64,000 bases of DNA from Odiellus spinosus. Lineage: Eukaryota; Arthropoda; Arachnida; Opiliones; Phalangiidae. The notes under the pieces are model-generated. The model worked only from the letters and a program-made list of their open reading frames with translations, was not told the DNA's origin and searched no databases. The stretch covers positions 6,707,851 through 6,771,850 of the forward strand of contig OY987234.1 of assembly GCA_963920705.1 (NCBI GenBank), in the 5' to 3' direction. This document shows, piece after piece, positions 21,801 to 64,000 of this stretch. Each line of letters begins with the position of its first letter. The first letter of the stretch is position 1. A program made the position numbers and the translations under genes.

Positions 21801-24800
21801 AAAATGAGTACCATGCTTAAATAATGATTTCATTAAATGACCTTTTTGGTGTATGTTAGGGGACCACATTATGGCCATTTCTGGGTCTCGCATTTTGGTC
21901 CCAAGTGAAAATAAAAGTGGATTTGACTTCCTCTGGCCTCGCCACTCATTTCAAATGTAGTGGGACCGTAAAATTAAACTTCGGGATAGGGCCACCAATT
22001 CCAATAAATTTCCTCATGCCCGCGTCGCGATCTACCTTAAATCAACTCGACTGTCCATATAGTAAACATCTCGCGACGGAATCCCTAAGCCTCGGCCCAG
22101 TATAATTCTTTCGGGAATTAATGGCGATCCCGTATACGGATCCAAGTTCACGAGTTTCTTATAAATGGAATAAATAGATTTTCTTAATTAGTTTTCGCGG
22201 TTTTTCTTGGCGAAGCTAAAAAGACGAAATTCCGTGACGTTGATTTGGTCTTAGTGGTTGAGGCTTTCGTCGAGGTCTCTCCGCTTGTATTTGGACTAAC
22301 GGGAGTGGATAGGTCCTTGATGGAACGACTTGGGGGAAATGTTATTTATTCCCTCGGATTCTCTTTAGCCTTCGTCAGCGGTTTAACAATATATAGAAAA
22401 GACTTGGCAAGCCGAGCTGAGAGAAGCGCTAGCTAGCTATAGCTTTATAGCCCCGGACCGCGAAAAGAAAGAAACTCTGGAAGAGTTAACTCCCGCTAGA
22501 GTTTCAATTCCCATCCTGGGATACGTTACGACCATCGATCTTCAGCCGCCAGAAAGTTACCTAACCAAGCTATAGAGAGACCAGGCCATGTCCATCTATA
22601 TATTTATACGAATCGCTGGGACTATTTTTATCCGGGTCGAACGTCTGTCACGTTGCAAACTGTTTTCGATCTAGATATAGAGTATATAGTAAATTGGTGA
22701 GCTTAGTATAGCGACTCTTTTCAGGTATAGCATTTTAGAAGTTGGTGAAAAAGACACGCGGTTCAAAGGTTGGCATTAACAGCAATAACTGTATAACGAC
22801 CATGGAACTAAATTAAGGACGGTTCTCCGGCATATAGTTTACGCTACACTCTCTGAAGAACCTTCCTTAACAAATCCTTCTTAATTTCAAACGCCCACAC
22901 CAAAATTTGTTGATTAAAAACGGAAACCGTTACGCTCTTAACGCTACTTACTACTAGGAAAATTGAATCGGTACTATTTCGTGGTTGCAACGAAATCCCG
23001 CTAGGGGAGTTGCCAACGAAGGTATTTTTCAGATTTTCTTGTCCGCGAACTGTTCCTAAATTAGTTTCATGTAGCGGTTCTATCCGTAGATCAAATATAG
23101 GTTTAGCTAGATTTAAATTGGCGATACTTTCATAGATATTACGACGCGACATCTATGGGCCCTAGTTGAAAGGAGCATGGGCGTCGGTTGGATTTTCAAA
23201 TCGGGAGGGGGCGATCGGGGCACTAATCAGGGGAGGAAACCCATGTATTTTGTAAAAAAAAAAAAGAATTGAGAGAGGGGTAGTTTTGAATTGGGGGGGG
23301 GGGGCACAGTCCCTCCCAACCCCTGTAAACGAGAAGTTTGGTAAATTGGGATATCAATTTCGTTTCTTTATTTGATGATATATATTTTTATTTCATCTTG
23401 ATTTGACATCGCTAAGAGATAAAGGTGATATAATTTAAACCCAATTGTAATATATTACGTAATTAAGCAATTGGGAAATCGAAGCCCCCCTCTCTGTTCC
23501 TACCCTAGCGAAGCTACCCTCGTTTTTAAAAAATGAAAATTTTAATGATTTTTATTTTTTATCTATTTGAAACAGAGGCGTGAAAGGTGATCGCGCCACC
23601 ATTCACAAACATTTGGTCGTTTGCTTGTTGCTGGCGGAAGCCGTTTACTTAGCCGGGATCCATCAGACTTCGACTCCGGTGGTATGTTCCGTGGTGGCCG
23701 GCGTCCTACACTACTTATTGACGGTGGTCTTCGCCTGGCTGTTGGCCGAATGCTTCGACTTGTACGCCACCGTCTCGGAACTCTTCCCCATCGAGAAGGA
23801 ACGCGTTCGATGGTACGCTCTCTTGTCCTACAGTGTCCCGGCTGGAATAGTGGCCATCTCGTCCGCCGTTGACCCCACCAGTTACGGCACTCCTACTTAC
23901 TGTTGGATCAACGTCGCCAATTACTACGTTTTCAGCTTCGTTGGACCAGCTATGATGGCCATCTTGGTAAGTCACAAATTGTTTTAGTTAATTTGCTTTT
24001 AAATCTTGATGGAGGTATTTTTAACGAAATTGCGAACAGCCTTCTACACTTAAATTTGTATCTCGGCTTTAAAAAAACGCGAACATTTAGTTCAATATCT
24101 TAGAGTGGTAATTACAGTAGTTCACGCATTTTCTTAGATATTTGCTCATTATTTTTTAATTTCCGCCTCTATTTCTTAATACCGAATGTAAGATTATGTT
24201 TCACCCTTTGACCTCACGATCCACGGACATACGGTGGCTAAATTTGACGCAGTAAGATAGCATTGATCTGGAATGATTTAATTAGTAAGGCGAATCGCGT
24301 AATATTTGATTGTGATTTTTACGACGTGTGGCGATGTTCAATCTATAGCGTCTTTTAGCATCGGGCCATCCCGTAATTAAACCCGGCGCAATATAGCCGT
24401 AGCCTTATTACGACGTGGAAATACCCCGATACTTTAAAGGCTATATATATTCTCATGATGCGATAGATTATATATATATGTATATATATTGAAAATTATC
24501 CAAACCCGCGTTCGCCCCCTAATTTGAATGAAGACACTTCGTGAGCTGCCTTTTAAACCCCCAACTCCCACTGATAAGGCTTAAGATTTCACTAGGCTCA
24601 GAGATAGTCCAATTTAACCTTAAGAAAGCCCGATATTATAAAAGAAAAATTTTACCTAAAATGTAGAGTTATAATAACTGAATGCCGCGATTGATATTGA
24701 GTAGAGTTTGAATCATAGGGAGGTTTCTGTACGTTCTAAGCTAGAACCCCGTCTTTTCTTTAAATTATTTCTTATCGATAAAGATAATGGATAGATTTTT

Positions 24801-33900: not shown

Positions 33901-36900
33901 GGACTCCTATTGGGTTGAAAGTTTCTGCGCATAGGTTTTCTCCTATATCATAAACCAAATTCTGGCGCTATTTTTCTCTGAGTTAAATCTAAATCGTCTG
34001 ACTATTGACGAATTCGGAATATCCATTCGCATAAACCAACTTCCAGAAGCTACGGCCATTGGGGTACAAATATTATGATGATACATCATAGCGGGTGTCG
34101 TTACCAAGCTAATAATATTAATAACGTAATAAATTATTAAAGTATACAAACAAATATTGGGCCCCGAAACGATAAAAAATAAATATACATAAAATTAATC
34201 AAGAATTTATATTAAAATGTGATATAGAATGGTGAATAGATGGCGCGCCTGCACCTCTATCTCTCTCTGGTATAGTGAAAATACAAGAATTTCTATAGAT
34301 ATGTACACCCGTTGCTATGGGAAACGAGTTGAGCCTAGAAGGGGCAAAATAGCGAGGTGGGAGTTATCGCCGAGTTTCTCTCTCGTCATAGCAAATCAGA
34401 ATGGAACTAGAAAAGCGCCACATCTTAACAGATCCGCGCATAAAGATGTACCCCAATGGCACCCTGCCCCTGGAAGTTACTCTTCAATTCCGAATTCATC
34501 TATATTAACACTGAAGAAGGGCCTCGTCTCGAAACGTATATATATAAATGTCAAGTACCATGTTAAATAATAAGCTTCATGTATATATTTTCGTAATCTC
34601 GTATATTCATTAAGATAAATACGCTATCGAACGAAATCATCATCGTCACTAAAGCCTGGTTCTTCCTTTAAATTATTAATATATTATCCTGAACTTTCCA
34701 ATTCGTTTTTAATTTTTAATTTTCAAGTTTTAAGGGGTTTAATATTTAAAATTTTATTAAATTAGAAAATATATGTTTACTTCCGTTATATGTTGATTCG
34801 TTTTCCATCTTGGAAATATTTTAATTCGCTTCAGGCTCTCTATATTTTATAGGAATTGTTAAAGCATTTTCTTCTTTCATGGTGTGAATTATTAATTTCT
34901 TAATTTTCATGGAAATTAAATTCAGTAACTAGGTTCGTATGTTTTAAAACGTATTCCTTATACGTAGTTCTTTTCGCGGGGGTGTAGGAGGTAAAACCCC
35001 TCGAGGGTATATTCGTATTAATGTATGTATATTTTAAGAAGAGAAATAGCGAAGACTACTTTAGGAAGCCTGGTTGGTTGGATTGAGTGGGGGTGGGCGG
35101 AAAGGAGGTTTCGGGACTTAATTCAACTCATTAAAACTTTAGGTTAACTTCGTTTCTTTTCACGTCTTTATTTTCTCATTGGTCCTTTTTCGTTTTAACG
35201 TAAATATCTGGAATCTCGACTAATACCGAGACCAGGACTAGGCTGGAAAATCTTTTTCACGACTTTTTCTTAAGCCCTACTCGCACGATACGACTGCGTA
35301 TTTAACTTTGTTAGATGAATTAAATTTCATTAGTTTAATCGTGGTTTTAAAATTAAACATTGTTTCGTTGACGCAACTTGCTTTAATCAAATTAATTCTT
35401 AACGGGAGAATGCAACCTTAAAACAAGTCTTTTTTTATCGATTCCTTATTGTTTATAATAAGCCTAATCCACCAGTAAAAAATTTTAAAAACAAATATTA
35501 AACTAGTAATAAAAAAACTTACCATCAAAATAGGCTGGGAAATAAGCTTAGCTGAATTCATGGAGATCACCAACTCCCCACATAAGGACTACCGACCAAT
35601 GGCATTGATCGATGTCTCTTATGTGGGGAATACTGTGTCTCCATGATCAATGTCATTGGTGGCTAGTCCTTATACGGGGAGATATATCCATGATTCCAGC
35701 TAAGCTTACTTAAGAATAGAAATGTCATCACGCAACTCAGATGGCGTTCTAAGCCTCTAGTTAGAAGCCACAGTTGGCGTCTAGCTCCACCTGGAGTTGC
35801 CTGTTGATATTTTTTTATTTTTACCCAACGATCTTACGATGGTCAGCCCGTGCCCCTTCTCTGTAAGCAATTTATGAATCCGTCTAAGTTTATGAATTTT
35901 CTTTACCCCAGGTTTATAATTGTGTTTGGACACCTTTCCTTGAATCATTTGGTTCACACCCTGTACTTTCTCGACGTATTTCGTTTGGCTTTAGGAGTAT
36001 GGCAACTGCGGCTAGGGTTTCGGGTACGGGGGTAACCAATAATTCCTTTATCATGCACCTGGGAATTTTATAAAAGCTCCTGTTTAGAAAAAGAAGCTCA
36101 GTAAAAATCTCTTTCTCCGAACCGAAAAATTTAAAATTTAAATTCTTTTTGGCCCCATATTTCATAGTTGCGCGTCCACTATTCTCTTTTACCCGCCCAC
36201 CCCCTGTCTTTATACTTGTAATTCGCTTTTAACGACCAAGTTTACGATCTTTATTACCTCTCTTCCGCCCCCCCCCCCCTGAATCCTTCACCCGAGTTAT
36301 TTAAGCTTAAAAACCTTTGTATACTGTTATAGCGGTATTATATATAGCTCTTTTTATTTCGAAGCCAGTAATTTTACTTTTAACGCAATGCGGGTAACTT
36401 CATTTCGCACCGGTTTTTATTTAAAATTTATTTCGGTACCGGTATTCGATAATGAAAAATCAAAAAGATGGAAGTTGCCAAACTTTGACCGTAGTTCTAA
36501 ATTTCGTAGGAAAAAATACATTACCGGTCGCAGTTTTTAGTCTGTAAATATGAAAATAATAAATAATTTAGACCCTTAAAGGGAGAATGCAATCTAACAT
36601 TTATTCCATATAGTTTAAATAGGCCTAATCTACTAGTAAAAAAATTTAACAACACAAATATTAAACTAGAAACAAATTTAAAACTTACCCGGAAAATAGG
36701 CTTAGCTGGATTCTAACGGCGAGATCTTAGTGAAGCTTCCCAAAACATTCTATTGGTTTCGATTAAAATTCAACCTATAATGAGTGCGTCCCTGAAAAAG
36801 GTTTCCCGCCTACTGTAGTGTTATCATAAAAAACACTATGCCTAAAAAATGGTTTTAATAACGCGCTCGCACTTTAGTAGGCGAGATAAGAATTTAATAA

Positions 36901-39900
36901 ATAAACATAAGAGGTTTCATCTATTCTTTTATCTGTAATAGTTAGCAGAGTAAATCATGTGCTTGAACAATAAACTTAGTAAACCCAGCGTGCGTTGTAG
37001 TATTTATTTAACATAGTCTTAGCTAAGTACGGAAAGCCTAAGAACAATACATGGTGTCAGAAGTGGGATTCGAACCCACGCCCTCATACTAAGCCTAAGA
37101 ACAATACACCTACTTCACAAATGAATATATTAGCATTATTCAGAACTGGAAGAGGGTAGTCAAAATTGAAAATATCATTTCTCCGAATAACAGAGGGCGC
37201 TTTTTATCGTATCTCGGAAAACTCTGTAACGAGATGATCCCGCATTATGTTTCTGGTTAACATGTAGCTTCATTTTCATTTCCAAGTTGGAAGTTTTTCC
37301 CTCAAAATAGGTGCATTAAATGAAAGATGAAGGGCTATTTTGATATTACGTAAGGCGACGTATTTATGTTTTATACTCTCTTTTGCATTCGTAAACGATC
37401 CTAATGTTTTTTCAAGGTTTTTTTCGTTATCTCGAATTCGCGTGCGGCCCCGAAAACATCTTTGTTTTATTTCTAGTCTCGCTTAATTTTTTACGGGTTT
37501 TTATACCCATCTTCTTGTTATATATCATTCGGAAAATATGGAAACGTCTAGCGTTCATCGTATTGAAAACTATAGATAGAAAGGCAGAGAATGAGAGATA
37601 TCTACACTATCTCCGTACCTTTTACTCTATCGCTTCCTTATAACAGTTGATGGAATATAATCTTGATCATCTTGAATTTTCAACGAATTCCAAGTTATGG
37701 TTCACGCGTTATTACTGTATGATTTTGGTTTCTTCGATGTTCTAGAGAGGGAGATAGGATTGTGTTAAATGACGTGATAAGAGAGCCCGTTTCTACCCTT
37801 CAAGGCGGTTATATTCATTTTTTTCATGGGTGTATTGGGGTTGAACTCCCAAAAAATAGGTTTACATTAGAACAGTAGTAAAAATAACCTTTTTACCTTG
37901 GGTTTTCTCGGGTTTTCGTTTTTCTTTCGGTAAACATCAGCCCGGTAATAGTCCGATGCTTTTATAGTGCTATTAAAAGTTCGTATAAAAGCATCGTATA
38001 TTATTATTTTTGAAATGAAATTTCTATTCCAAGCCTATATCACCTTTGGTTCGTGTAAACTGTTGTTTCAATGGTAGTTCACAATTATATGTATATAGGT
38101 ATATATGAATGGATGAATATTTATTAACCCTTGCGTTCCCTTTTAAATCAGGGAGGACCTATAAAGGTCGCGAGTAATACAAAAATAGATAAATACCAAG
38201 TCTACCTTGGACAGTAAGCGGCACTACTAGTTTATACATGCACAAAACAAAATAAAACAAAAATGAATTACAATAAAACCAAGACACAACACGTTTACCC
38301 ACAACTGATGGATGCTTTACTAAGTACGCTGGTGGACGTGCAGTCTCCCCCACAAACAGCGCTAGGCAAAACAGCTAGGAAAGGGTGTTTTGGTAAGGAT
38401 AGAAACCGTTTGTTTTGAGAAACTTATTTTTAAGAATTGTGGTTTTGAAAACCACTGACCTACCCCATATCGTGTACAATATCTACCATCGCTGCGAATA
38501 TTTGGCTAATTGATAAATGATGTTAATTCTCGTATTTAGTAAGGCAGAAAATTGTTCATTGAACCTGATTCCGGAGAATACATGAAATTGTTAATATTTT
38601 CTATTTTAAAGGGAAACTTAGATCTAAAAATTAAACAGCTTTTGAATTTATTTTCGGTGTCACAAAATCAAAAAAAAAAAAAAAAAAAAAAAAAAACGTA
38701 TTCGATAATTTCCAGACAAGTATTAGACACGTTTTTACTGTTAAATTAGTTTTTAAAATTAAGAAAAGTTTGAATTTTAGTAAATATAAATTCGGGCCAA
38801 TCATAGTATTTCAGTCTTCAATAGCGCTTGTAATGTCCTAACATTAAGAGAATAGGCAGGCATGTTTTGGCATGGTGATTCCGAAAATAAATTAAAAAGC
38901 CGTTCCCTTTTTAGCTCCAAGTTCCCCTTTAATATAATGGTATATTTTCGTATTCCAAGTTAATAGCCATATATTTTACTGCGACAAGTAATTACTCGAG
39001 TTAATTGTTAACCGAAGTTCACGCGACTTTATCGGTACTTTATTCGAAACTCAATTTGAGTTGCGAATTATTAAACTGCCTTTAGAATTTGCTAATTTAA
39101 TACCGCGACAGTTAAAGTTCTACATAAATAAATCTTTATCGCTGTTGAATAAATGTTAACGCGTAGTAAATTCATGGTAAATAAATAAAGAGCCCCTTGT
39201 TTCGTAATAAAATTTGTGTAAATATTTTTCCGGCGAATCCGTGAAGATTATGGTCGTGTAAAAGATAGATTAAAAATAGAATCTGAGAGAGTATCGGTGT
39301 CAGTGTTTACTTAGACATTCGCGTAACCCTCGGTTCCGCTTCCGTTAAAGCGTATCCCACTTTGACACCATCCCCGAGTGACGTGGCTTTCCAAGATCTA
39401 AAACCTAGAATAATTTCGAATCTCTCTTCTCTCCGACGGTACCATCCTCGTCAAACGCTGACTTGAAAATATAGGGAATCGGCAACATCCTTCCTTTGAT
39501 CGAAATCATTTGAATATGGAAATAACACGGTGTGCCGACTCCCTATAAGTTATCGTCGTTCGAAAGGAGTGAACTAAGTAACGAAACTTGAGGTTTATTA
39601 ATACACCTTGTTGAAGGTAATAGGCTAAGAAAGTAGTTAACCCTAACCTATCGCGAACATCCGTAGGGATATTGCTAGATAAAACGTTTTAGAGAGAGAT
39701 CCGACCTCTATCGCGATTTAGACGAACTACGGTACGAAAGGAACGTCAATTTCAATTTAAAAACTAGCGAATGAAATGATGCGGTTTGCGAATTCCTGCG
39801 TAACTCTAAACAATGCCACGGAGTTTAAAAAAAGAATTTGTTCGTTTCGCAACGTCGCTCGTTATACAGATGGCACCTAATTCCGCTCCTCCCTTTTTTC

Positions 39901-53600: not shown

Positions 53601-53881
53601 CAAGGAGGATCAGAGAAGGAGAGGAAATGTGGGGACGGCGCGGTTCCTACTGCGTCGGCCTAAACTCCCACTCTGGGAGAACGGGGGTAGAGACGTTTCG
53701 TGGTAAAATGTTGTCGCGTGGGTAAAACGAATCCTTTATGAGACGCGCTAGCTAGCGACCACGTGACAACAGTTTACCTCGAGAATTTCCTATCCCCCCT
53801 TTCCACCCGAGTGGGAGGTTGGCTCTTCTCTCTCTAACTCAACGCAGCCCCACATTTCCTCTCCTTCTCTGATCCTCCTTG
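53601..53881. mobile_element. hAT-type foldback MITE with 33 bp perfect terminal repeats
   Basis: AAGGAGGATCAGAGAAGGAG plus 13 further bases at 53602-53634 is repeated in perfect inverse at 53848-53880. GCCACAAT occurs at 53593-53600 and 53881-53888; one G may belong to either the element or the duplication. Inner arms such as ACTCCCACTC against GAGTGGGAGG continue the palindrome. Non-coding. Confidence 0.88.
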
Positions 53882-55940: not shown

Positions 55941-56039
55941 TTTGACAAAACATGGCGTCGAAAAATGGCACCATCGAGTACCATCGGTACCGTCGGTACC
56001 GCTGCCGTAGAAATGGTAATTTACTACTACTTCGGTCGT

Positions 56040-58240
56040 TTTTACAGGGGGTGTGTTTATCGATCGGTCGTTTTTACAGGGGGTGTGTTTATCGATCGGT
56101 CGTTTTTACAGGGGGTGTGTTAATCGATCGGTCGTTTTTACAGGGGGTGTGTTAATCGATCGGTCGTTTTTACAGGGGGTGTGTTTATCGATCGGTCGTT
56201 TTTACAGGGGGTGTGTTTATCGATCGGTCGTTTTTACAGGGGGTGTGTTTATCGATCGGTCGTTTTTACAGGGGGTGTGTTTATCCATCGGTCGTTTTTA
56301 CAGGGGATGTGTTTATCGATCGGTCGTTGTTACAGGGGGTGTGTTTATCGATCGGTCGTTTTTACAGGGGGTGTGTTTATCGATCGGTCGTTTTTACAGG
56401 GGGTGTGTTTATCGATCGGTCGTTTTTTCAGGGGGTGTGTTTATCGATCGGTCGTTTTTACAGAGGGTGTGTTTATCGATCGGTCGTTTTTACAGGGGGT
56501 GTGTTTATCGATCGGTCGTTTTTACAGGGGGTGTGTTTATCGATCGGTCGTTTTTACAGGGGGTGTGTTTATCGATCGGTCGTTTTTACAGGGGGTATAT
56601 TTATCGATCGGTCGTTTTTACAGGGGTGTGTTTATCGATCGGTCGCTTTTACAGGGGGTGTGTTTATCGATCGGTCTCTTTTAGAGGGGGTATATTTATC
56701 GATCGGTCGCTTTTACAGGGGGTGTGTTTATCGATCGGTCGCTTTTACAGGGAGTGTGTTTATCGATCGGTCGCTTTTACAGGGGGTGTGTTTATCAATC
56801 GGTCGTTTTTACAGGGGGTGTATTTATCGATCGGTCGTTTTTACAGGGGGTGTATTTATCGATGGGTCGTTTTTACAGGGGGTGTATTTATCGATCGGTC
56901 GTTTTTACAGGGGCTGTATTTATCGATCGGTCGTTTTTACAGGGGGTGTGTTTATCGATCGGTCGCTTTTACAGGGGGTGTATTTATCGATCGGTCGTTT
57001 TTACAGGGGCTGTATTTATCGATCGGTCGTTTTTACAGGGGGTGTGTTTATCGATCGGTCGCTTTTACAGGGGGTGTATTTATCGATCGGTCGTTTTTAC
57101 AGGGGGTGTATTTATCGATCGGTCGTTTTTACAGGGGGCGTATTTATCGATCGGTCGTTTTTAATGGGGTGTATTTATCGATCGGTCGTTTTTACAAGTG
57201 GTGTATTTATCGATCGGTCGTTTTTACAAGGGGTGTATTTATCGATCGGTCGTTTTTACAGGGGGTGTGTTTATCGATCGGTCGTTTTTACAGGGGGTGT
57301 GTTTATCGATCGGTCGTTTTTACAGGGGGTGTGTTTATCGATCGGTCGTTTTTACAGGGGGTGTGTTTATCGATCGGTCGTTTTTACAGGGGGTGTGTTT
57401 ATCGATCGGTCGTTTTTACAGGGGGTGTGTTTATCCATCGGTCGTTTTTACAGGGGGTGTGTTTATCCATCGGTCGTTTTTACAGGGGTAGTGTTTATCG
57501 ATCGGTCGTTTTTACAGGGGGTGTGTTTATCGATCGGTCGTTTTTACAGGGGGTGTGTTTATCGATCGGTCGTTTTTACAGGGGGTGTGTTTATCGATCG
57601 GTCGTTTTTACAGGGGGTGTGTTAATCGATCGGTCGTTTTTACAGGGGGTGTGTTAATCGATCAGTCGTTTTTACAGGGGGTGTGTTTATCGATCGGTCG
57701 TTTTTACAGGGGGTGTGTTTATCGATCGGTCGTTTTTACAGGGGGTGTGTTTATCGATCGGTCGTTTTTACAGGGGGTGTGTTTATCGATCGGTCGTTTT
57801 TACAGGGGGTGTGTTTATCGATCGGTCGTTTTTACAGGGGGTGTGTTTATCGATCGGTCGTTTTTACAGGGGGTGTGTTTATCGATCGGTCGTTTTTACA
57901 TAAGGTGTGTTTATCGATCGGTCGTTTTTACAGGGGGTGTGTTTATCGATCGGTCGTTTTTACAGGGGGTGTGTTTATCGATCGGTCGTTTTTACAGGGG
58001 GTATATTTATCGATCGGTCGTTTTTACAGAGGTGTGTTTATCGATCGGTCGCTTTTACAGGGGGTGTGTTTATCGATCGGTCGCTTTTACAGGGGGTATA
58101 TTTATCGATCGGTCGCTTTTACAGGGGTGTGTTTATCGATCGGTCGCTTTTACAGGGGGTGTGTTTATCGATCGGTCGCTTTTACAGGGGGTGTATTTAT
58201 CGATCGGTCGCTTTTACAGGGGGTGTGTTTATCGATCGGT
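56040..58240. repeat. Higher-order repeat block, copy 1 of the 5.76 kb duplication
   Basis: Rare variants here reappear about 5,759 bp downstream: GGTCGTTGT (56322 and 62081), CGTTTTTTCA (56421 and 62180), TTAATGGGG (57161 and 62920), ATCAGTCG (57661 and 63420), TAAGGTGTG (57901 and 63660). Two markers deviate by exactly one unit (5,727 and 5,791), showing unit gain or loss. Confidence 0.85.
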
Positions 58241-59500
58241 CGCTTTTACAGGGGGTGTGTTTATCGATCGGTCGCTTTTACAGGGGGTGTATTTATCGAT
58301 CGGTCGCTTTTACAGGGGGTGTGTTTATCGATCGGTCGCTTTTACAGGGGGTGTGTTTATCAATCGGTCGTTTTTACAGGGGGTGTATTTATCGATCGGT
58401 CGTTTTTACAGGGGGTGTATTTATCGATCGGTCGTTTTTACAGGGGATGTATTTATCGAACGGTCGCTTTTACAGGGGGTGTATTTATTTATCGATCGGT
58501 CGTTTTTACAGGGGGTGTATTTATCGATCGGTCGTTTTTACAGGGGGTGTATTTATCGATCGGTCGTTTTTACAGGGGGTGTATTTATCGATCGGTCGTT
58601 TTTACAGGGGGTGTGTTAATCGATCGGTCGTTTTTACAGGGGGTGTGTTAATCGATCAGTCGTTTTTACAGGGGGTGTGTTTATCGATCGGTCGTTTTTA
58701 CAGGGGGTGTGTTTATCGATCGGTCGTTTTTACAGGGGGTGTGTTTATCGATCGGTCGTTTTTACAGGGGGTGTGTTTATCGATCGGTCGTTTTTACAGG
58801 GGGTGTGTTTATCGATCGGTCGTTTTTACAGGGGGTGTGTTTATCGATCGGTCGTTTTTACAGGGGGTGTGTTTATCGATCGGTCGTTTTTACAGGGGGT
58901 GTGTTTATCGATCGGTCGTTTTTACAGGGGGTGTGTTTATCGATCGGTCGTTTTTACAGGGGGTGTGTTTATCGATCGGTCGTTTTTACATAAGGTGTGT
59001 TTATCGATCGGTCGTTTTTACAGGGGGTGTGTTTATCGATCGGTCGTTTTTACAGGGGGTGTGTTTATCGATCGGTCGTTTTTACAGGGGGTATATTTAT
59101 CGATCGGTCGTTTTTACAGAGGTGTGTTTATCGATCGGTCGCTTTTACAGGGGGTGTGTTTATCGATCGGTCGCTTTTACAGGGGGTATATTTATCGATC
59201 GGTCGCTTTTACAGGGGGTGTGTTTATCGATCGGTCGCTTTTACAGGGGGTGTGTTTATCGATCGGTCGCTTTTACAGGGGGTGTATTTATCGATCGGTC
59301 GCTTTTACAGGGGGTGTGTTTATCGATCGGTCGCTTTTACAGGGGGTGTGTTTATCAATCGGTCGTTTTTACAGGGGGTGTATTTATCGATCGGTCGTTT
59401 TTACAAGGGGTGTATTTATCGATCGGTCGTTTTTACAGGGGATGTATTTATCGAACGGTCGCTTTTACAGGGGGTGTATTTATTTATCGATCGGTCGTTT
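57650..59500. repeat. Local duplication of about 1 kb inside the minisatellite
   Basis: The series GTTAATCGATCAGTCG, then a TAAGGTGTG unit, then a short CAGAGGTGTG unit, then the 36 bp TATTTATTTATCG unit occurs from 57,655 and again from 58,649. The distance is 994 bp at the first marker and 1,090 bp at the second, so the second copy gained three units. Confidence 0.8.
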
Positions 59501-61798
59501 TTACAGGGGGTGTATTTATCGATCGGTCGTTTTTACAGGGGGTGTATTTATCGATCGGTCGTTTTTACAGGGGCTGTATTTATCGATCGGTCGTTTTTAC
59601 AGGGGGTGTGTTTATCGATCGGTTGCTTTTACAGGGGGTGTATTTATCGATCGGTCGTTTTTACAGGGGGTGTATTTATCGATTGGTCGTTTTTACAGGG
59701 GGTGTATTTATCAATCGGTCGTTTTTACAGGGGGTGTACTTATCGATCGGTCGATTTTACAGGGAGTGTATTTATCGATCGGTCGTTTTTACAGGGGGTG
59801 TATTTATCGATCGGTCGTTTTTACAGGGGGTGTATTTATCGATCGGTCGTTTTTACAAGTGGTGTATTTATCGATCGGTCGTTTTTACAAGGGGTGTATT
59901 TATCGATCGGTCGTTTTTACAGGGGGTGTGTTTATCGATCGGTCGTTTTTACAGGGGGTGTGTTTATCGATCGGTCGTTTTTACAGGGGGTGTGTTTATC
60001 GATCGGTCGTTTTTACAGGGGGTGTGTTTATCGATCGGTCGTTTTTACAGGGGGTGTGTTTATCGATCGGTCGTTTTTACAGGGGGTGTGTTTATCGATC
60101 GGTCGTTTTTACAGGGGGTGTGTTTATCGATCGGTCGTTTTTACAGGGGGTGTGTTTATCGATCGGTCGTTTTTACAGGGGGTGTGTTTATCGATCGGTC
60201 GTTTTTACAGGGGATGTGTTTATCGATCGGTCGCTTTTACAGGGAGTGTGTTTATCGATCGGTCGCTTTTACAGGGGGTATATTTATCGATCAGTCGCTT
60301 TTACAGGGGGTGTGTTTATCGATCGGTCGCTTTTACAGGGGTGTGTTTATCGATCGGTCGCTTTTACAGGGGGTGTATTTATCGATCGATCGCTTTTACA
60401 GGGGGTGTGTTTATCGATCGGTCGCTTTTACAGGGGGTTTGTTTCTCAATCGGTCGTTTTTACAGGGGGTGTGTTTATCGATCGGTCGTTTTTACAGGGG
60501 GTGTGTTTATCGATCGGTCGTTTTTACAGGGGGTGTGTTTATCGATCGGTCGTTTTTACAGGGGGTGTGTTTATCGAACGGTCGCTTTTACAGGGGGTGT
60601 GTTTATCGATCGGTCGTTTTTACAGGGGGTGTGTTTATCGATCGGTCGTTTTTACAGGGGGTGTGTTTATCGATCGGTCGCTTTTACAGGGGGTGTGTTT
60701 CTCAATCGGTCGTTTTTACAGGGGGTGTATTTATCGATCGGTCGTTTTTACCGGGGGTGTATTTATCGATCGGTCGTTTTTACAGGGGATGTATTTATCG
60801 ATCGGTCGCTTTTACAGGGGGTGTATTTATCGATCGGTCGTTTTTACAGGGGGTGTATTTATCGATCTGTCGTTTTTACAGGGGTTGTATTTATCGATCG
60901 GTCGTTTTTACAGGGGGTATATTTAACGATCGATCGTTTTTACAGGGGGTGTATTTATCGATCGGTCGTTTTTACAGGGGTGTATTTATCGATCGGTCGT
61001 TTTTACAGGGGGTGTGTTTATCGATCGGTCGCTTTTACAGGGGGTGTATTTATCGATCGGTCGTTTTTACAGGGGGTGTATTTATCGATCGGTCGTTTTT
61101 ACAGGGGGTGTACTTATCGATCGGTCGATTTTACAGGGTGTGTATTTATCGATCGGTCGTTTTTACAGGGGGTGTATTTATCGATCGGTCGTTTTACAGG
61201 GGGTGTATTTATCGATCGGTCGTTTTTACAAGGGGTGTATTTATCGATCGGTCTTTTTTACAGGGGGTGTGTTTATCCATCGGTCGTTTTTACAGGGGGT
61301 GTGTTTATCCATCGGTCGTTTTTACAGGGGGTGTGTTTATCGATCGGTCGTTTTTACAGGGGGTGTGTTTATCGATCGGTCGTTTTTACAGGGGGTGTGT
61401 TTATCCATCGGTCGTTTTTACAGGGGGTGTGTTTATCGATCGGTCGTTTTTACAGGGGGTGTGTTTATCGATCGGTCGTTTTTACAGGGGGTGTGTTTAT
61501 CGATCGGTCGTTTTTACAGGGGGTGTGTTTATCGATCGGTCGTTTTTACAGGGGGTGTGTTAATCGATCGGTCGTTTTTACAGGGGGTGTGTTTATCGAT
61601 CGGTCGTTTTTACAGGGGGTGTGTTTATCGATCGGTCGTTTTTACAGGGGGTGTGTTTATCGATCGGTCGTTTTTACAGGGGGTGTGTTTATCCATCGGT
61701 CGTTTTTACAGGGGGTGTGTTTATCCATCGGTCGTTTTTACAGGGGGTGTGTTTATCGATAGGTCGTTTTTACAGGGGGTGTGTTTATCGATCGGTCG

Positions 61799-64000
61799 TT
61801 TTTACAGGGGTGTGTTTATCGATCGGTCGTTTTTACAGGGGGTGTGTTTATCGATCGGTCGTTTTTACAGGGGGTGTGTTAATCGATCGGTCGTTTTTAC
61901 AGGGGGTGTGTTTATCGATCGGTCGTTTTTAGAGGGGGTGTGTTTATCGATCGGTCGTTTTTACAGGGGGTGTGTTTGTCGATCGGTCGTTTTTACTGGG
62001 GGTGTGTTTATCGATCGGTCGTTATTACAGGGGGTGTGTTTATCGATCGGTCGTTTTTACAGGGGATGTGTTTATCGATCGGTCGTTGTTACAGGGGGTG
62101 TGTTTATCGATCGGTCGTTTTTACAGGGGGTGTGTTTATCGATCGGTCGTTTTTACAGGGGGTGTGTTTATCGATCGGTCGTTTTTTCAGGGGGTGTGTT
62201 TATCGATCGGTCGTTTTTACAGAGGGTGTGTTTATCGATCGGTCGTTTTTACAGGGGGTGTGTTTATCGATCGGTCGTTTTTACAGGGGGTGTGTTTATC
62301 GATCGGTCGTTTTTACAGGGGGTATATTTATCGATCGGTCGTTTTTACAGGGGTGTGTTTATCGATCGGTCGCTTTTACAGGGGGTGTGTTTATCGATCG
62401 GTCTCTTTTAGAGGGGGTATATTTATCGATCGGTCGCTTTTACAGGGGGTGTGTTTATCGATCGGTCGCTTTTACAGGGGGTGTGTTTATCGATCGGTCG
62501 TTTTTACAGGGTGTGTATTTATCGATCGGTCGCTTTTACAGGGGGTGTGTTTATCGATCGGTCGCTTTTACAGGGGGTGTGTTTATCAATCGGTCGTTTT
62601 TACAGGGGGTGTATTTATCGATCGGTCGTTTTTACAGGGGGTGTATTTATCGATGGGTCGTTTTTACAGGGGGTGTATTTATCGATCGGTCGTTTTTACA
62701 GGGGCTGTATTTATCGATCGGTCGTTTTTACAGGGGGTGTGTTTATCGATCGGTCGCTTTTACAGGGGGTGTATTTATCGATCGGTCGTTTTTACAGGGG
62801 GTGTATTTATCGATCGGTCGTTTTTACAGGGGGTGTACTTATCGATCGGTCGATTTTACAGGGAGTGTATTTATCGATCGGTCGTTTTTACAGGGGGCGT
62901 ATTTATCGATCGGTCGTTTTTAATGGGGTGTATTTATCGATCGGTCGTTTTTACAAGTGGTGTATTTATCGATCGGTCGTTTTTACAAGGGGTGTATTTA
63001 TCGATCGGTCGTTTTTACAGGGGGTGTGTTTATCGATCGGTCGTTTTTACAGGGGGTGTGTTTATCGATCGGTCGTTTTTACAGGGGGTGTGTTTATCGA
63101 TCGGTCGTTTTTACAGGGGGTGTGTTTATCGATCGGTCGTTTTTACAGGGGGTGTGTTTATCGATCGGTCGTTTTTACAGGGGGTGTGTTTATCCATCGG
63201 TCGTTTTTACAGGGGGTGTGTTTATCCATCGGTCGTTTTTACAGGGGGTGTGTTTATCGATCGGTCGTTTTTACAGGGGGTGTGTTTATCGATCGGTCGT
63301 TTTTACAGGGGGTGTGTTTATCGATCGGTCGTTTTTACAGGGGGTGTGTTTATCGATCGGTCGTTTTTACAGGGAGTGTGTTAATCGATCGGTCGTTTTT
63401 ACAGGGGGTGTGTTAATCGATCAGTCGTTTTTACAGGGGGTGTGTTTATCGATCGGTCGTTTTTACAGGGGGTGTGTTTATCGATCGGTCGTTTTTACAG
63501 GGGGTGTGTTTATCGATCGGTCGTTTTTACAGGGGGTATGTTTATCGATCGGTCGTTTTTACAGGGGGTGTGTTTATCGATCGGTCGTTTTTACAGGGGG
63601 TGTGTTTATCGATCGGTCGTTTTTACAGGGGGTGTGTTTATCGATCGGTCGTTTTTACATAAGGTGTGTTTATCGATCGGTCGTTTTTACAGGGGTGTGT
63701 TTATCGATCGGTCATTTTTACAGGGGGTGTGTTTATCGATCGGTCGTTTTTACAGGGGGTATATTTATCGATCGGTCGTTTTTACAGAGGTGTGTTTATC
63801 GATCGGTCGCTTTTACAGGGGGTGTGTTTATCGATCGGTCGCTTTTACAGGGGGTATATTTATCGATCGGTCGCTTTTACAGGGGGTGTGTTTATCGATC
63901 GGTCGCTTTTACAGGGGGTGTGTTTATCGATCGGTCGCTTTTACAGGGGGTGTATTTATCGATCGGTCGCTTTTACAGGGGGTGTGTTTATCGATCGGTC
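61799..64000. repeat. Higher-order repeat block, copy 2 of the 5.76 kb duplication
   Basis: It carries the same ordered set of rare variants as the first 2.2 kb of the array and continues past the window end. Confidence 0.85.

Follow-up and report, generated by a model that had tools for sequence, protein, structure and literature searches.

The window, a 64,000-nucleotide stretch of the Odiellus spinosus genome (assembly GCA_963920705.1, contig OY987234.1, forward strand; C12:6707851-6771850 in the genome as searched, 443 Mb in 286 contigs), carries two identical 18-mers, AAGCCTAAGAACAATACA, at 37034-37051 and 37091-37108, and between them lie 39 bp (37052-37090). A sequence-only reading of the window had recorded these perfect 18-bp direct repeats and, in the 39-bp insert, the 3' part of a tRNA-Leu with its CCA. 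Both observations are borne out, the tRNA accounting for 38 nt and the 39th base, a T, being foreign to it. The locus is made up of the following features.

36809..36813, + strand: left target-site duplication CCTAC, identical to 37109-37113
36814..37051, + strand: long terminal repeat (LTR), 238 bp, TGTAGTG...ACAATACA, with 13 other near-full copies in the genome that have the same ends
37052..37089, - strand: 38-nt copy of the 3' part of the primer tRNA-Leu(CAA) including CCA (TGG at 37052-37054), from comparison with tRNA genes
37090, + strand: single T, neither tRNA nor LTR when compared with tRNA genes and LTR copies
37091..37108, + strand: repeat of the final 18 nt of the LTR (U5 end), which restores a normal ...ACA terminus to the insertion
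37109..37113, + strand: right target-site duplication CCTAC, the same 5 bp as on the left

Since CCTAC stands before the LTR and again after the second 18-mer, the inserted unit is 36814-37108, which consists of the LTR (238 bp), the tRNA copy (38 nt), one T, and the last 18 nt of the LTR repeated; only one complete LTR is present. The 18-bp repeat had been taken for a target duplication, but it is the U5 end copied twice, and the real target duplication is the 5-bp CCTAC, which lies outside both the LTR and the tRNA copy. The T at 37090 is possibly an untemplated addition, and no clear microhomology was seen at the tRNA-to-U5 junction in the window. By our reading of the tRNA structure, the copy stops in the loop of the variable arm.

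The insert is antisense to the 3' part of tRNA-Leu with CCA added, and its minus-strand reading ends ...CCCACTTCTGACACCA. It was compared with the tRNA-Leu genes of the same genome, as the earlier reading had proposed. The 12 tRNA-Leu(CAA) genes listed read ...CCTCGTATGAGGGCGTGGGTTCGAATCCCACTTCTGACA followed by AAT, AAC or ATA, so that none encodes CCA (0/12), and all 12 are identical to the insert over the 35 nt adjoining CCA (35/35), which together with CCA make up the 38 nt. Because CCA is absent from the tRNA-Leu genes, the template was a mature tRNA, and this supports the earlier proposal of reverse transcription from a mature tRNA-Leu ending in CCA, followed by integration. Across the genome, 72 places match the first 26 nt of the insert with at most two mismatches, and the CCA complement TGG is found at the window only; one other place (L010) reads TAG, and the remaining 70 have both mismatches inside the TGG letters (ATG, TAT, TTT, TCT).

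The tRNA-Leu(CAA) genes contain an intron and lie in tandem arrays, with copies 196 or 207 bp (or multiples of these) apart. Tandem arrays of tRNA genes were seen at C1:23.79M, C1:24.06M, C3:0.4M and 0.9M, C11:5.36M, C18:8.96M, C1:15.89M, and C5:9.54M, and their contents are intron-containing tRNA-Leu(CAA), tRNA-Ser, tRNA-Asn/Ile, and tRNA-Lys. ARAGORN predicted no tRNA genes in the window, a silence that is weak evidence since the program also misses the intron-containing tRNA-Leu genes. Rfam at gathering scores gave nothing in the window, and at a loose threshold the T-arm appears as an 18-nt tmRNA fragment (E 0.019). With ARAGORN and Rfam silent and the tRNA-Leu genes lacking CCA, a genomic tRNA gene or pseudogene was rejected as the identity of the insert.

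The left flank of the insert is repeated across the genome, and local alignment bounds the repeat at 36814-37051. Besides the window copy, the genome matches listed comprise 13 near-full copies of this LTR, which are 95.4-97.5% identical and share the ends of the window LTR, and three more distant copies that are partial. Five 5'/3' pairs with TG...CA ends account for ten of the 13 and are spaced about 4.6 kb (four pairs) or about 25 kb (one pair), and the five pairs are flanked by matching 5-bp duplications (GTTAT, CTATG, CAAGA, CGGTA, and CCCTC). Two of the three single LTRs have the duplications GTGAA and CCATA, and the third, L027, has none; 5-bp target duplications thus accompany 7/8 of the other insertions of the window LTR family. 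The widely spaced pair, C7:10438649-10464221, has CTATG on both sides despite its length and probably contains a large nested insertion.

In 5/5 of the 5' LTRs the LTR is directly followed by TGGTGTCAGAA, an 11-nt primer-binding site (PBS) for the same tRNA-Leu, after which the elements run on as TCGTGAACCC, a sequence unrelated to the tRNA; the first 11 nt of the tRNA copy in the window are this PBS. The sequence-only reading had named one finding that would speak against it, a larger repeat family with the fragment and its flanks in common, and this is largely what the genome contains: the flank recurs in the 13 other near-full LTRs, and of the fragment the first 11 nt recur, in five. An integrase is encoded in the final 1.5 kb of one element of the family (Pfam PF17921 and PF00665), and it also matches PFV and Ty3 chains in the PDB. 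The first 1.5 kb of the element contains a frame in which Pfam at 0.001 finds nothing and which is labelled gag-like from its position and from weak protease and zinc-knuckle matches under the Pfam cut-offs. As read at the two 1.5-kb ends, the gag-like frame with its weak protease match comes first and the integrase precedes the 3' LTR. With its paired LTRs, tRNA primer-binding site, rve-type integrase, and short fixed target duplication, the family is probably of the Ty3/gypsy type.

The search for further units used a loose pattern covering the 3' arm of any tRNA with CCA, which matched 49 places in the genome vs 42 for the reversed control, so that the match count alone is no evidence and most matches may be due to chance. 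Sixteen of the 49 places were chosen by eye for tRNA-like text, and the window is the 17th; among the unchosen places six are tRNA-Asn and tRNA-Lys genes, and a T-stem check listed 15 of 30 loci. CCA appears to be genomically encoded at five tRNA-Asn places and one tRNA-Lys place. Some of the 16 form a group with an LTR-like end (often ...ACAA) that leads into a long tRNA-Ser complement, and the sequences upstream are mutually dissimilar except for two duplicated pairs. Genome searches resolved L095, L097 (with its duplicate L098), L099 (with its near-duplicate L100), and L104; L096, L102, L103, L105, L106, L107, L108, L109, and L110, the last of which looks unlike the other chosen places, are candidates only. 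For L101 the genome search gave no clear LTR family. Further partial tRNA-Ser matches that include the CCA letters were noted, e.g. at C7:21719396, C7:16056375, and C6:20714202. A free scan for duplications yields many chance candidates, and only cases in which the start of the LTR is fixed by relatives or by a palindrome were therefore counted.

The LTR of L095 (C2; L095:385-599, 215 bp) has 100% identity to four full-length pairs and to one further LTR for which no partner is listed. Next to it in L095 comes a 53-nt tRNA-Ser copy that runs to ...TTAGCA; tRNA-Ser genes match its first 50 nt, their matches beginning after the CCA. GTTAT stands before the LTR and directly after the tRNA-Ser copy. 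In the 5' LTRs of the pairs of this family the match runs on through 10 nt of PBS only. The full-length elements of the family lie at C3:24173800-24178745, C11:14114355-14119296, C4:20904101-20909044, and C1:33387842-33392788, and because their eight LTRs are 100% identical to the L095 LTR over the matched stretch they are probably very recent copies.

L104 (C14) consists of an LTR, two A's, and a 38-nt tRNA-Ser copy, with ATAAT on both sides, and eight 5' LTRs of its family stop matching after a PBS of 12-13 nt. The LTR start predicted by ATAAT coincides with the start of the match in 11/19 LTR relatives, the other eight starting 1-15 bases earlier. The sequence around this insertion is a high-copy repeat. 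In the 40 best-scoring matches, 19/20 left-flank matches end exactly at the LTR start; on the right flank, 33/39 of the best scored matches start exactly after the tRNA copy and six start 1-5 bases later. When the two flanks are joined with a single ATAAT they are contiguous in 40/41 matches, which are empty sites. The flank breaks and the empty sites together define the insertion as the LTR, two bases, and the 38-nt tRNA copy. Its right end is ..ATG, which differs from the usual CA of an integrase substrate.

L097:370-901 (C11:11277521-11278052) is a palindrome in the order LTR, tRNA-Ser copy, tRNA-Ser, inverted LTR, in which both outer ends are U3 and ATAAC lies on both sides. This is the product that fold-back self-priming by a U3-R-U5-tRNA DNA would be expected to give. 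L098 is a tandem segmental duplicate of L097 about 1.8 kb away, and in the LTR family of L097 the match of one full-length member continues through a PBS of 13 nt.

The copy of the cognate tRNA exceeds the genomic PBS in the window (38 vs 11 nt), in L095 (53 vs 10 nt), and in L104 (38 vs 12-13 nt), and the duplications around the single-LTR units are 5 bp in each case (CCTAC, GTTAT, ATAAT, and ATAAC for the window, L095, L104, and L097, respectively). Since L095 and L104 have no U5 repeat, the window is the only case found of its exact shape. A second tRNA-Leu case, L010 (C1:7982408), is diverged, has TAG for TGG, and contains a copy of about 46-50 nt. It follows an LTR of a different family than that of the window, for which relatives were found, and no convincing 5-bp duplication was seen around it.

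Extended tRNA copies are also found inside longer elements. L099:600-1085 (C113:343084 on) and L100 (C113) are near-identical over 1.2 kb, and in both of them and in C47:1205399-1210007 a second LTR follows 2.6-4.4 kb on and an antisense tRNA-Ser copy of about 50 nt is common to all; the C47 copy matches at 93% straight through the tRNA-derived stretch. The element at C5:23576273-23581106, which belongs to the L104 family, is full-length with an extended tRNA copy of 38-48 nt. Among the full-length copies of the window family, 0/5 have such a copy. In L099 and L100 the only ATGs ahead of the gag-like part of the open frame fall in the tRNA-derived stretch. The first ATG is made of the spacer A and the TGG of the PBS, and about 17 N-terminal codons are antisense tRNA-Ser. 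Residues 54-153 of the L099 frame are 30% identical to the gag-like frame of the window family (E = 2e-10), and it is this similarity that gives the frame its label, Pfam finding nothing in it. A later in-frame stop is present in both L099 and L100. The gag frame of these copies is thus predicted to start inside the tRNA copy, although gag may instead be translated from another start codon or by way of splicing.

One origin to be weighed for the window unit is insertion of a full-length element whose PBS carried an extended tRNA copy, followed by a deletion of its interior that left 18 bp of the 3' LTR. The 5-bp duplication and the normal right end would survive such a deletion, and elements of the required kind exist (the C5 element with 38-48 nt and the C113/C47 lineage with about 50 nt), but the five full-length copies of the window family are not among them. 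It would also have cut the tRNA copy by chance in the variable loop, where L104 stops too, and it is unable to explain L095 and L104, in which the duplication comes directly after the tRNA copy, or the palindrome L097; we regard it as unlikely. Considerably less credible is that the retrotransposon RNA itself encoded the long tRNA stretch, in a lineage with an extended PBS, and that the stretch was not copied from the tRNA in this event. One lineage (C113 twice, C47 once) does have extended tRNA sequence as part of the element, but the five 5' LTRs of the window family continue TGGTGTCAGAA-TCGTGAACCC with no tRNA, and the window copy agrees with the listed tRNA genes in 35/35 nt.

The sequence-only reading had proposed a LINE-type mechanism, that is, retroposition of a tRNA-Leu 3' fragment into what would here be an old solo LTR, with an 18-bp target duplication. 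While the flanks are unknown, a perfect 18-bp repeat and a CCA end do fit that pattern, and it has a parallel in the tailless tRNA retropseudogenes known from therian mammals, which, like the copies described here, are truncated tRNA copies without poly-A and with breakpoints in single-stranded regions (PMC5322556). As described there, these differ in being made by LINE1, in having target duplications around the RNA copy alone, and in having no LTR. In the window the mechanism would need four coincidences: the element's own primer tRNA, the primer orientation, the CCA at the LTR/PBS border, and a duplication that stops just where the LTR does. Every border falls on an LTR or PBS border, and for this reason LINE retroposition was rejected; it is the least credible of the origins considered. 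A LINE-made tailless tRNA retropseudogene was likewise rejected as a candidate, there being no duplication of host DNA around the RNA copy alone and the 18-bp repeat being the LTR terminus. The original observation is sound and its explanation changes: the insert is one of several fossils left in this genome by reverse transcription of retrotransposons.

In our judgement 36814-37108 is probably an aberrant reverse-transcription product of an LTR retrotransposon that was placed by the integrase of such an element, and the best reading, held with the same good but incomplete confidence, is an integrated 'dead-end' plus-strand strong-stop DNA that read into its own tRNA primer. This reading is supported by the LTR family with its PBS, the lack of an encoded CCA in the tRNA-Leu genes, the integrase domains in a relative, the 5-bp duplication outside the whole unit, and the independent cases L095, L104, and L097. 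Against it count the possible later deletion, the lack of clear microhomology at the switch to U5, the missing U5 repeat in L095 and L104, the unusual right end of L104, and the absence of a duplication at L027, of a clear duplication at L010, and of an LTR family at L101. From the structure of the unit we infer the following order of steps. Plus-strand strong-stop DNA (U3-R-U5) would have been extended through the tRNA still on the minus strand, past the usual stop and A58 and up to the variable loop. Synthesis would then have switched to the U5 end of a minus strand already rid of its tRNA; alternatively, a nascent 18-nt minus strand may have switched onto the U3-R-U5-tRNA DNA. The switch to U5 would have given a blunt LTR end usable by integrase. 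Displaced dead-end strong-stop molecules are the likely source of the window unit, and what look like sister outcomes occur in the same genome, with the molecule integrated with its tRNA end or folded back on itself.

We take A58 to be the 19th nucleotide from the tRNA 3' end, and on this count the copies described here ran past it. By our numbering, the copies end in the variable loop (window and L104), at nucleotide 33 (L095), and near 36-38 (L099 and L010). As these ends lie in single-stranded loops, the stops could be set by cleavage of the primer RNA there or by blocking modifications; m3C32 and m1G37 are examples of modifications that might stop copying. In HIV-1, m1A58 is reported to be needed to generate the plus-strand strong stop (PMC11301382).

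According to the Ty3 model presented in PMC5371799, 12 nt of the tRNA are copied into the first plus-strand strong-stop DNA, which is displaced and is an abundant dead-end product. The units described here resemble this dead-end DNA of Ty3 and Ty1, in which U3-R-U5 is joined to a short primer-tRNA copy and which is displaced and takes no part in strand transfer (PMC5371799). The PBS complementarity is of similar length, and the short PBSs of 10, 11, and 13 nt fit the Ty3 pattern. The units differ from the Ty3 and Ty1 products in that the tRNA copies are 38-53 nt long, are integrated, and are accompanied by 5-bp duplications. Moreover, tRNA sequence is not inherited in Ty1/Ty3 in the account given by PMC5371799, whereas the L099 lineage (C113/C47) and the C5 element carry a tRNA copy.

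A cloned episomal MMLV circle with tRNA sequence between the LTRs (Colicelli and Goff 1986, as cited in PMC12220202) is likewise a case of reverse-transcribed tRNA joined to an LTR end; it differs in being episomal, with tRNA-Gly as a spurious primer in the description of PMC12220202, whereas the unit here is an integrated genomic copy. The one direct relative that the open-access search brought up is an HIV provirus in a cell clone, in which a CCA-ended tRNA-Gly lies next to the 3' LTR and for which the authors propose self-primed copying (PMC12220202). There too a CCA-ended tRNA copy stands at the proviral border, but the tRNA-Gly is treated as a spurious primer and the tRNA replaces host DNA outside the LTR (PMC12220202). 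Plus-strand strong-stop DNA with tRNA sequence is known from particles and from Ty1/Ty3 primer-tRNA experiments (PMC5371799). In the open-access literature searched, no account of the genomic fate of such DNA was found and no description of an integrated germ-line LTR-tRNA unit was seen, a weak negative because most subscription journals lay outside the scope of the search.

On the best reading, the window unit preserves a normally discarded copying intermediate as a genomic fossil. It is an evenly balanced question whether tRNA-over-copied displaced strong-stop DNA is in general no dead end here. Such DNA would be made double-stranded via U5 switch-back, fold-back self-priming, or a tRNA-primed second strand, and would integrate as a single-LTR unit, a recombination-free source of solo LTRs; occasionally the tRNA copy would enter a full-length element and become heritable, even giving gag its start and first codons (L099 lineage). 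If genomes were scanned for LTR ends that run into over 18 nt of complement to a CCA-ended tRNA, the hits would form a fossil record of the sites at which reverse transcriptase halts on primer tRNAs, and they would also record the rescue of dead-end cDNA and solo LTRs that never went through LTR-LTR recombination.

Elsewhere in the window, the frame at 23580-23987 resembles an exon of a receptor of the secretin/adhesion type (Pfam 7tm_2, E 1.6e-32), which points to an animal genome. A hairpin-forming sequence, CGGCCTAAACTCCCACTCTGGGAG..., is common to window 53655-53827 and L010:2400-2600; in the window it matches a microRNA weakly, below threshold, and has the look of a mobile inverted repeat. 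Two tandem repeats are present, an AT-rich 31-bp repeat of about 18 copies at 1606-2147 and a 32-bp repeat of about 249 copies at 56032-64000, which has strong GC and AT skew and runs off the window end.
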